Assembly (NCBI GenBank): GCA_031082285.1
Contig: JAVHLK010000009.1
Coordinates: 1 to 64,000, forward strand
Origin: Desulfomonilaceae bacterium
GTDB lineage: Bacteria; Desulfobacterota; Desulfomonilia; Desulfomonilales; Desulfomonilaceae
Reading direction: 5' to 3'
Length of the DNA stretch: 64,000 nt
Part shown: piece after piece, positions 10,335-57,414 of the stretch
Numbering within the stretch: position 1 is the first letter of the stretch
How the letters are laid out: every line of letters starts with the position of its first letter
The notes under the pieces: model-generated
Database searches by the model: none
Seen by the model: the letters and a program-made list of their open reading frames with translations, nothing else
What the model was told of the DNA's origin: nothing
Position numbers and translations under genes: made by a program

Positions 10335-10590
10335 ATGCGGTCGCACATTCCCGTATACGCTCGGTAGCGTCCCGTCCCGCGCGGAACGCGGGACCCCTAC
10401 CAAACCGGCACAGAGACGCAGAAGATGACGGGCACGGAGGCCCGTCCCACGAGAGTGGTTTGAGACACCGCACTTTCTTTCGTAGCCCGGGCCTCCGTGC
10501 CCGGAAAGCTCTGGTTCCAGATATCAGACTCGGTAACGGGAGCAGAATGTGTCACCGGACTTACGCCATGAAGCATCAGCGTCTGTGACA
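10335..10590. repeat. Dispersed repeat R1, copy 1
   Basis: About 255 bp sharing long stretches with copies near 31421-31612 and 40352-40850 (cores ctttcttcgtagcccgggcc-like and gagcagaatgtgtcac). It holds a perfect 16-bp inverted repeat: CGGGCACGGAGGCCCG (10429-10444) and CGGGCCTCCGTGCCCG (10488-10503). Its left (gcacattc) and right (gaatgtgt) ends are also weakly inverted. It lies between livK and livH, so it may shape readthrough of the operon. Confidence 0.75.
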
Positions 10591-31420: not shown

Positions 31421-31612
31421 CTACCAGACCGGCATGGAGGTGCAGGCGATGACCGGCATCCCGCGCAGAACGCGGCAGTCCCACAAGAGTGGTTTGAGGC
31501 TCCGCACTTTCTTTCGTAGCCCGGGCCTCCGTGCCCGGAGTGCTCCGGTTCCGGTTATCGGGCTGGGTAACGGGAGCAGAATGTGTCACAGAATCTACGC
31601 CATGAAACACTT
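31421..31612. repeat. Dispersed repeat R1, copy 2
   Basis: It shares with copies 1 and 3 the core cacaagagtggtttgagg, the segment cgtagcccgggcctccgtgc, and the end gagcagaatgtgtcac followed by tacgccatgaaacac. Its right end runs directly into the stop codon of the selenoprotein gene at 31611. The bases before it (31366-31420) hold a separate GC hairpin (gtaggggcacccc/gggtgccc). Confidence 0.75.
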
Positions 31613-38160: not shown

Positions 38161-39414
38161 ATGAGAAAAGCATTTTACCGCGGTCTGTTCATCGCGACGG
38201 TAGTCACGGCCTGTGTCGTATGGTCCTTGGGTGCGGAGGCCGCAAACGTCCAGTACGAGGCCGTGGGACCGATTGCAGGAACGGTAGCGGCACCCGACAG
38301 TGCGCGCGGAGCGGTTGTAAGGGCGGGACCTTCGCAGTCGGACCGCGCGCTCGGAGTATTGAGAAACGGAACGAGAGTGAAAAACTACTTGGAGTTCGCA
38401 AACGGTTGGGTGAGAATTCGCACGCCTTTTCACGGAGCCTGGGTCCAGGCCTCTTACATTGTTCCACAGAGCGCTCCCGCCGTCGTGACCGGCGTGGACC
38501 AGCCGGAGAACTGTCTGAGAGTGCGGGAAGGTCCCGGTTCTGAATTCGAGGTGGTCGGGTGTCTCGCTCACGGTGAGACGCTTACGCTCACCGGCTTATG
38601 GTCTGAGAACAATTGGGCCGAGATATCGCATCCCGTCAGCGGCTGGGTTCATGCAGCGCAGATCGGCACGGGCCTGGATCCGTCATATCCCACGCGCACT
38701 TCACCCGTACGGGAAGTCGTGGTCGAAAGCTATCCCACCCTGTACCCGGAAGACTTGATTGTGGACCCGTATTTCTACGACTACAATTACGCCTACCCTC
38801 TGGGCGCGTACATCTACGGCGCATACCCCTGGTACTACATTGGAAAGAGGTTCCACAAGAGGTTCTACACGAATAGATTCCATGGTAAGGACTATTGGCG
38901 CTACGGGAAACCGCGTCATTGGGACAGACGCGCCTGGAGAGTGAACAGAGATCGGAGACCCGTCATCGGTGCGGGCACGCGGGGCGGCAGCCTGCGCGTA
39001 GGCTCGAGACGAGGCGGCAGCGCTCTGGGAGTCGACAGACGAGCAATGACCTCTGCAGTCAGAGGAAGCAATCGCGGCTTCCGCTACGGCGGAGGTAGAG
39101 GCAGTGCAATCAACCTCGGTGCCGCATCCAGAGGCGGCAGCTTCCGTATGGGCGGTTCCAGAGGCCGAAGCGCGGCCTTCGGTTCAGCCCCCAGAGGCGG
39201 CAGCTTCCGTATGGGTGGCTCAAGAGGCGGTAGCTTCCGCATCGGCGGTGGTAGAGTTGGCGGAATGAGCCTCGGTGGGGCGTCCAGAGGCGGCGGCTTC
39301 CGTATCGGCGGCGGAGGGTCCCGCGGTGGATTCTCCGGGCGGATCGGAGGCGGCAGAGGCGGAATGGGAGGATTCTCCCGCGGTGGCGGAGGCCGTGGAG
39401 GCTTCAGACGCTAA
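38161..39414 (+). CDS. Exported SH3 protein with Gly/Arg/Ser-rich tail
   Basis: 417-aa protein. A signal peptide (LFIATVVTACVVWSLGAEA) is followed by two bacterial SH3-like domains (about 45-110 and 115-175, with VRAGPSQSD and VREGPGSEF). Then a Tyr-rich stretch (YDYNYAYPLGAYIYGAYPWYY, ~residues 210-235), a basic WRYGKPRHWDRR segment, and a ~150-residue tail of SRGGSFRMGG-type repeats follow. GGGAGG precedes ATG 38161. Bacterial SH3 domains often bind peptidoglycan; the tail resembles RGG low-complexity segments and could bind polyanions or self-associate, which is inference. Confidence 0.7.
   Translation: MRKAFYRGLFIATVVTACVVWSLGAEAANVQYEAVGPIAGTVAAPDSARGAVVRAGPSQSDRALGVLRNGTRVKNYLEFANGWVRIRTPFHGAWVQASYIVPQSAPAVVTGVDQPENCLRVREGPGSEFEVVGCLAHGETLTLTGLWSENNWAEISHPVSGWVHAAQIGTGLDPSYPTRTSPVREVVVESYPTLYPEDLIVDPYFYDYNYAYPLGAYIYGAYPWYYIGKRFHKRFYTNRFHGKDYWRYGKPRHWDRRAWRVNRDRRPVIGAGTRGGSLRVGSRRGGSALGVDRRAMTSAVRGSNRGFRYGGGRGSAINLGAASRGGSFRMGGSRGRSAAFGSAPRGGSFRMGGSRGGSFRIGGGRVGGMSLGGASRGGGFRIGGGGSRGGFSGRIGGGRGGMGGFSRGGGGRGGFRR
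39129..39316 (+). repeat. In-gene tandem repeats encoding the SRGGSF tail
   Basis: Units of the type agaggcggcagcttccgtat recur about every 30-75 bp (39130, 39194, and shortened forms after). They encode the Gly/Arg/Ser repeats of the SH3 protein and are likely to vary in number. Confidence 0.6.
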
Positions 39415-40351: not shown

Positions 40352-40850
40352 CACAAATACGGTCGCATTCCCTTGAGCGCTCGGTCGCGTCCCGTCTCGC
40401 GTTCTGCGCGGGATGCCGGGCGCTCCGGGAGCAGAAACCGGTACAGAGGCGCAGAAGATAACGGGCAGAGACGCCCGTCCCACAAGAGTGGTTTGACGCT
40501 CCGTACTTTCTTTCGTAGCCCGGGCCTCCGGAAATTGTCTCAAAACTCAAATGCAAGCGCAAGTCGTGGCACGCCGCGGTGTAGGGGCGGGTTTTACACC
40601 CGCCCGATTCTGGGTGCTCGATTGTGGGCGGGTATAAAACCCGCCCCTACAGAGGTCTGCAGCAAACGTCCGCAACGAGCCGGCAACCCGTCCCGCATTG
40701 CGTGACGAAAATGAATCCACATCGTGCGACGATTTGTCTCCATGCCGGAGTTTTGAGACAGTTTCTCCGTGCCCGGAATGCTCTGGTTCCGTTGCTCAGA
40801 CTCGGTAACGGCAGTAGAATGTGTCACCGTATGTACGCGATAAACCACTA
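40352..40850. repeat. Dispersed repeat R1, copy 3, interrupted by a MITE
   Basis: The R1 sequence runs from about 40352 to 40530 and resumes at 40766-40850 after a 235-bp insertion. Removing the insertion and one tccg restores cgggcctccgtgcccggaat as in copies 1 and 2. Its right end runs into the stop codon of the gene at 40848. Confidence 0.8.
40531..40765. mobile_element. MITE-like element, copy A
   Basis: 235-bp non-coding element with terminal inverted repeats GAAAttGTCTCAAAACTC and its inverse at the right end (GAGTTTTGAGACagTTTC). It is flanked by an exact 4-bp duplication TCCG (40527-40530 and 40766-40769). The interior holds a palindrome, gtaggggcgggttttacacc ... acccgcccctac (about 40582-40652). 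An inverted copy lies at 57124-57359, about 90% identical by eye. It has no transposase and would depend on one elsewhere. Confidence 0.85.
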
Positions 40851-56874: not shown

Positions 56875-57123
56875 AGCCGGGAACGCGGATGCCCGGCGTC
56901 GGTCGCGTGGTCACATGAGCCCATCGGTGTGGCCGGACCACACCTCAGAGCCCGTTCTCTCGGTTTGCTGCCCATGGCCTCAGACACAAGACTCCTCACT
57001 TTCAGGCTTCCGACTTGGCCTGACCTGGGGAAGGAAAAATTTCTCTTTCTTCGTGTCTTGTGGTGAGATCCGGTCTTCTTTATGTTCTATGAACCTTTGT
57101 GGTGAACCCAGGGCGGACACAGA

Positions 57124-57359
57124 GAAACTGTCTCAAAACTCCGGCATGGAGACAAATCGTAGCACGATGCGGATTCAATTTCGTTACGCAATGCACGACG
57201 GGTTGCCTGCTCGTCGCGGACGTTTGCTGCAGACCTGTGTAGGGGCGGGTTTTACACCCGCCCGCAATCGAGCACCCAGAATCGGGCGGGTATGAAACCC
57301 GCCCCTATCACCGCGACGTGCCACGACTTGGGCGTATATTTGAGTTTTGAGACAATTTC
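57124..57359. mobile_element. MITE-like element, copy B (inverted)
   Basis: 236-bp element in reverse orientation to copy A at 40531-40765, with the same ends GAAACTGTCTCAAAACTC and gagttttgagacaATTTC. It is flanked by the exact 4-bp duplication CAGA (57120-57123 and 57360-57363). The central palindrome (tgtaggggcgggttttacac ... acccgcccctat) is kept. It sits between the convergent uvrA and acyl-CoA ligase genes; the rest of 56875-57414 shows no gene. Confidence 0.85.
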
Positions 57360-57414
57360 CAGAGGTCCGCCCCTACAAGCATCTTCTTATGTCCTGACGG
57401 TTCGACGTTTCTTT

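Follow-up and report, generated by a model that had tools for sequence, protein, structure and literature searches.

Judging from sequence, the two inverted copies of a short element in the window (the whole stretch of 64,000 nucleotides analysed here) are likely to belong to a MITE family mobilised in trans by a DDE transposase of the IS1182 family that targets the loops of REP hairpins. The transposase would bind the 18-bp TIRs and pick a REP-type palindrome, probably extruded as a hairpin or cruciform, or else recognized via the GG..CC top of its stem. Joining of the strands on either side of the 4-nt loop, followed by gap filling, would then produce the duplication of the loop that is observed at the insertion sites. 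The MITE encodes nothing functional, and its consequence is that REPs in intergenic DNA are broken and spread. Compared with the earlier note, which had recognized the MITE, the present analysis adds the REP-loop target rule, the affiliation with IS1182, the REP doublet in the core and a related shell carrying REPs and a RAYT gene. The two copies, their ends and their duplications are as follows.

40531 to 40765, forward strand: MITE copy A, 235 bp, TIRs and TSD read in the sequence, one of about eight full-length copies in the genome
57124 to 57359, reverse strand: MITE copy B, 236 bp, inverted relative to copy A
40531 to 40548, forward strand: left TIR of copy A, GAAATTGTCTCAAAACTC, identical to an end of the IS1182-type IS of the relative G005 except at position 5
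40748 to 40765, reverse strand: right TIR of copy A, GAAACTGTCTCAAAACTC, 18/18 identity to the left end of the G005 IS
40527 to 40530, no strand: left TSD of copy A, TCCG, the loop of the target REP, whose intact form is present elsewhere in the window
40766 to 40769, no strand: right TSD of copy A, TCCG, read in the sequence
57120 to 57123, no strand: left TSD of copy B, CAGA, read in the sequence
57360 to 57363, no strand: right TSD of copy B, CAGA, read in the sequence

Over their full length the copies share 92% identity, and both have 18-bp TIRs GAAAxTGTCTCAAAACTC and exact 4-bp TSDs. On rereading, both elements described in the earlier note, with their common ends and the flanking TCCG and CAGA duplications, were found as it had reported them. 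Its claim that they lack coding capacity also held, nothing beyond chance ORFs being present in either copy.

The draft of the window genome (5.6 Mb) contains approximately eight full-length and many partial copies, and the end pattern has 45 matches there at no more than one mismatch. The 13-bp end, again allowing one mismatch, occurs 58 times in this genome vs two occurrences of the reversed control pattern, and therefore chance is excluded. Many contigs terminate within a MITE copy, hence the assembly breaks on this repeat. The termini recur in other members of the family: the MITE end was found in 9 of the 60 genomes searched, nearly all of them Desulfomonilaceae. An Rfam scan of the window matched no family. 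In the wider contig collection, the TIR scan yielded 49 contigs, nearly all with lone chance matches and none with a pair having a perfect duplication; one 161-bp pair had flanks matching at three of four positions. Classification as a MITE is upheld by the small size (below approximately 600 bp), the lack of a transposase, the multiple copies, the conserved TIRs, the 4-bp TSD specific to each copy, the empty sites, and an IS with the same TIRs in the relative G005.

The earlier note held that copies lacking duplications or ending differently would speak against its reading; most complete copies have both the ends and the TSDs. A minority have discordant flanks (TGAA/TTCA in L004, TGAC/GCAA in L163, and L007), which could stem from decay or from copies recombining with one another. 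As a separate observation, L163 (G005:C1:5128700-5132500), L004 and L007 combine intact ends and REP-like flanks with unmatched TSDs, suggesting recombinational inversion or exchange between copies.

Copy A had been said to interrupt a repeat, R1, that is restored by excision of the element together with one TCCG, and intact R1 targets at 10482 and 31516 bear this out. What copy A struck in R1 is a palindrome of the GTAG-tagged REP type, with the insertion point exactly in the loop. The interrupted and the intact REPs are located as follows.

40515 to 40776, forward strand: GTAG-tagged REP GTAGCCCGGGCC-TCCG-TGCCCGG, split by copy A and folding into a hairpin whose loop holds the TSD
57111 to 57376, reverse strand: GTAG-tagged REP (GTAGGGGCGGACC-TCTG-TGTCCGCCC) interrupted by copy B, near-intact relatives, hairpin fold
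10482 to 10504, forward strand: intact (empty) target REP of copy A, exact match
31516 to 31538, forward strand: intact (empty) target REP of copy A, exact match

The empty site of copy A, GTAGCCCGGGCCTCCGTGCCCGG, has 18 exact copies in the genome (these two and 16 more) and 27 at no more than two mismatches. Since it is intact at 18 places, the insertion of copy A is demonstrated. Near-intact relatives of the copy B target were found at 14 places.

In each case the TSD forms the loop of a palindrome, both for copy A (GCCCGGGCC-TCCG-TGCCCGG) and copy B (GGGCGGACA-CAGA-GGTCCGCCC) and at other MITE sites such as CCCGGCGA-TGAA-TCGCCGGG, GCCCGGTAC-TTCA-GTGCCGGG and GACCGGCA-GGGA-CGCCGGTC. When folded as single-stranded DNA, the sites have the TSD as the hairpin loop; in both window copies the loop measures 6 nt, with the TSD as its inner part.

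For the quantitative comparison, elements were selected by TIR pairs and TSD alone, the palindromes not being used in the selection. In seven genomes, at least seven of the eight arm positions on the two sides of the central TSD were complementary at 46 of the 73 MITE sites and 16 of the 17 IS sites, and at 1.3% of 4500 control positions taken no farther than 300 bp from these sites. The binomial p-value for the MITE sites is about 3e-68 and is indicative only, because the controls, as well as the sites and genomes, are related. All eight complete sites of the window genome have at least six of eight pairs, and six of them at least seven. Pairing is weak (five of eight or fewer, the control level) at 17 of the 73 MITE sites. 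GTAG or CTAC adjoins the stem at 47 of 90 sites vs 3.2% of controls. As about half of the stems carry this tag, the targets count as GTAG-tagged REPs as PMC3733652 uses the term. Such REPs are high-copy palindromes of 20–40 bp with a terminal GTAG, and the MITE cores belong to them too.

Were REPs simply the commonest intergenic sequence, neutral insertion and selection against hits in genes would mimic a preference. Copy B would fit such an explanation, lying between the convergent uvrA and AMP-binding enzyme genes, where an insertion does little harm. However, the elements are in the loop at base resolution and not merely close to REPs, and the nearby controls rarely reach the same pairing, so we consider a neutral origin of the pattern very improbable.

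The sequences of the stems differ between sites and co-vary across the arms. Within sites, 7.0 of 12 arm positions pair on average vs 4.8 ± 0.25 when the right arms are permuted (61 distinct sites); therefore the pairing exceeds what a shared consensus gives. From this pattern we infer recognition of structure rather than sequence. Alternatively, the same DDE element may read the REP sequence itself, that is, the GTAG tag and the GG..CC stem top, a possibility that differs from the hairpin reading only in the mode of target recognition. Positions 3–4 of the stem top are mostly G-C, and therefore we take sequence recognition of REPs as a serious contender, albeit at less than even chances. It is also consistent with the common GTAG tag and with the behavior of IS1397 and IS621, which target REPs; the target choice of IS1397 and ISKpn1 is credited to their transposases (PMC1525189). 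On the other hand, several unrelated REP classes and stems are used, with the arms compensating (CCACGGGT/ACCCGTGG, CCGTGGGT/ACCCACGG, CCCGGCGA/TCGCCGGG, GGGCGGAC/GTCCGCCC), the loop sequence is nearly free, and the arm pairing is above that of the permuted control, all of which argues against reading of the REP sequence.

A transposase gene flanked by the same TIRs and 4-bp TSDs was sought and found in the relative G005, whose complete chromosome (6,500,104 bp) contains 19 near-identical ISs of 1681 bp with the ends of the MITE, starting with GAAACTGTCTCAAAACTC and finishing with AGGTTTTGAGACGCTTTC. The product is a 479-aa IS1182-family DDE transposase (one copy is broken) scoring 368.8 bits with the IS1182 model NF033551 (cut-off 270) and also matching PF13751 and PF05598. 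It matches PF01609 as well, and the motifs VDGTK, ADGGY and EPPFAWIK, candidates for the DDE catalytic residues, are readable in it. The TSDs are perfect 4-bp duplications in 17 of the 19 copies, match at three of four positions in one and are discordant in one. After removal of the IS and one TSD copy, with the TSD as the loop, 18 of the 19 sites are exactly in CCACGGGT-NNNN-ACCCGTGG or CCGTGGGT-NNNN-ACCCACGG, two of these being one base off.

Since TIR, TSD length and target are common to both elements, we infer that the window MITE is mobilised by a transposase of the G005 type, and an IS of this type is its likely autonomous partner. We rejected a simple internal deletion of the G005 IS as the origin of the MITE, because the two have only the TIR in common. 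The window's own draft genome, which is broken at many MITE copies, yielded no intact IS1182 element bearing these ends, and the 16 other family genomes examined, drafts among them, yielded no IS1182 transposase gene bounded by them. The IS1182 matches of the window genome are weak or belong to a different group with CTAGGAGCCTGTCG ends. Matches in G000:C11 and in G006, G010 and G012 were considered as partners and discarded, given that they have CTAGGAGCC(T)GTCG ends, characteristic of a different IS1182 group, or run into contig ends. None of the PF01609 transposases of G000 (the window genome), G003, G010 and G012 is flanked by MITE ends, and a scan of the wider contig collection with the back-translated transposase revealed no relative. 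Two distant IS1182 copies (L178 and L190) have 4-bp TSDs but no palindrome.

Two other groups of ISs were encountered. L172 (G017) and L179 (G000:C11), with CTAGGAGCCTGTCG / CTAGGAGTCTGTCG ends, represent a separate IS1182 group with CTAGGAG ends in the same bacterial family. G005 also contains a second DDE IS of 1514 bp (L090 and 13 other copies) with ends CAATGCTGTTGA and a 466-aa frame matching PF01609; most of its copies lie in GTAG REPs (GTAGCGCCGGCCTCCGTGCCGG), where 11 bp (GGAGGCCGGCG) appear to be duplicated.

The MITEs consist of a shell, formed by the 18-bp TIR and a TCGTGSCACGA-like box approximately 30 bp inside most ends, and a core. These parts are positioned in the window copies as follows.

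40564 to 40573, forward strand: subterminal box TCGTGGCACG of copy A, common to most shells with differing cores
40721 to 40733, reverse strand: subterminal box ATCGTGCGACGAT towards the right terminus of copy A, read in the sequence
40580 to 40651, no strand: core of copy A, an inverted doublet of a GTAG-type REP (TGTAGGGGCGGGTTTTACACCCGCCC ... GGGCGGGTATAAAACCCGCCCCTACA)
57238 to 57308, no strand: core of copy B, the same REP doublet as in copy A

The strong internal palindrome of the earlier note is thus real and consists of the two inverted REP hairpins. Inverted REP hairpin pairs form most of the MITE cores inspected, and the REP class differs between MITE families (GTAGGGGCGGGT/ACCCGCCC in the window, GTAGGGGCGCTTCGAGAAGCGCC in G003, CCCTCACCC...GGGTGAGGG in others); the G001 element has no obvious REP pair in its core. 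In addition, a 331-bp element in G003 (L217, G003:C10:330700-331600) resembles the 131-bp-type MITE and has a second TIR-like sequence in its REP core, which may reflect one insertion nested in another. A 715-bp shell in the window's genome (G000:C233, 25785-26499; L333:986-1700), with TSD GGAA, encloses GTAG-type REPs and the gene for a 162-aa REP-associated tyrosine transposase (RAYT; 97.2 bits with NF047646, cut-off 80; PF01797).

The latter shell invites the explanation that RAYT (HUH/Y1), and not a DDE enzyme, moves the shells as TIRtron-like elements; RAYT genes flanked by TIRs ('TIRtrons') and TIR repeat families have been described (PMC3733652). We regard this as improbable. IS200/IS605 enzymes are reported to act without TIRs or larger target duplications (PMC2817692), whereas a 4-bp TSD is the rule here, in place of the absence of TSDs expected of RAYT-mobilised REPINs and TIRtrons. 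Moreover, in the 19 G005 copies it is a DDE transposase gene that lies between these TIRs, the loop target being the same, and of the RAYT loci fetched only G000:C233 has the shell.

With mobilisation by the DDE transposase as the preferred reading, every new copy would bring new REP palindromes, because the core inside the shell is a REP pair; that such cores in turn serve as insertion targets is only a suggestion. Shells of this kind, holding REPs in their cores and in one case a RAYT gene as well, would give a DDE transposase a concrete way to multiply REPs, which bears on the question of how REPs spread. A broader proposal, which we advance tentatively and ourselves find rather doubtful, is that the transposase reads DNA shape, inserting at a hairpin or cruciform apex whatever its sequence and duplicating the loop, while the MITEs, by carrying REP pairs and once a REP-RAYT unit, multiply their own landing sites, so that REPs and MITEs spread each other.

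Palindrome targeting by the IS1182 family is already known. The staphylococcal IS1272 and TnSha1 target inverted repeats or hairpins with little conservation of primary sequence (PMC5678879, PMC4923244) and resemble the elements studied here in the IS1182-family DDE transposase (NF033551), the IS length of about 1.7–1.9 kb and the TIRs of 16–18 bp. For IS1272, however, the reported outcome is replacement of the stem-loop (PMC5678879), with deletion and no duplication (PMC4923244), whereas here both stem arms are kept, the 4-nt loop is duplicated, the insertions fall mainly into REPs and non-autonomous derivatives are numerous. Loop duplication was previously only a drawn alternative, 'pathway c', that was not observed (PMC5678879). 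Natural evidence at base resolution for the loop-duplicating outcome of IS1182-type stem-loop transposition is now available from 17 of the 19 G005 ISs and from dozens of MITEs. We found no description of loop duplication at REPs in the openly searchable literature; an earlier description elsewhere, for example in subscription papers or ISfinder, is possible. ISPse1 of Paracoccus (IS1182 family, 1653 bp, 16-bp perfect IR) likewise generates 4-bp direct repeats (PMC3281130), but a palindromic target, as seen here, is not reported in that paper.

REPs or PUs are also specific targets of IS1397 and ISKpn1 (IS3), IS621 (IS110), ISRm22 (IS4) and ISPpu9 (PMC1525189, PMC8450116), which, unlike the present elements, have transposases of other families and other ends. 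Tobes and Pareja listed IS3, IS110, IS4, IS256 and IS5 as REP-targeting families (PMC1525189); IS1182, absent from this list, now joins them. The GTAG palindromes, the cores of inverted REP pairs and the single shell with RAYT are shared with GTAG-tagged REPs, REPINs, RAYT REPtrons and TIRtrons (PMC3733652), but here a DDE shell encloses the REP pairs, whereas REPINs have no DDE-type TIR or TSD. QMITE2 of Coxiella burnetii is similarly a MITE tied to a GTAG REP that is itself an IS target; in the passages cited from the review (PMC10969869), the IS is IS1111 and loop-duplicating MITE insertion is not described.

Another repeat in the window, at 38966-39327, consists of imperfect direct repeats of 56–63 nt in a reading frame of 434 aa that includes bacterial SH3 domains (PF08239).
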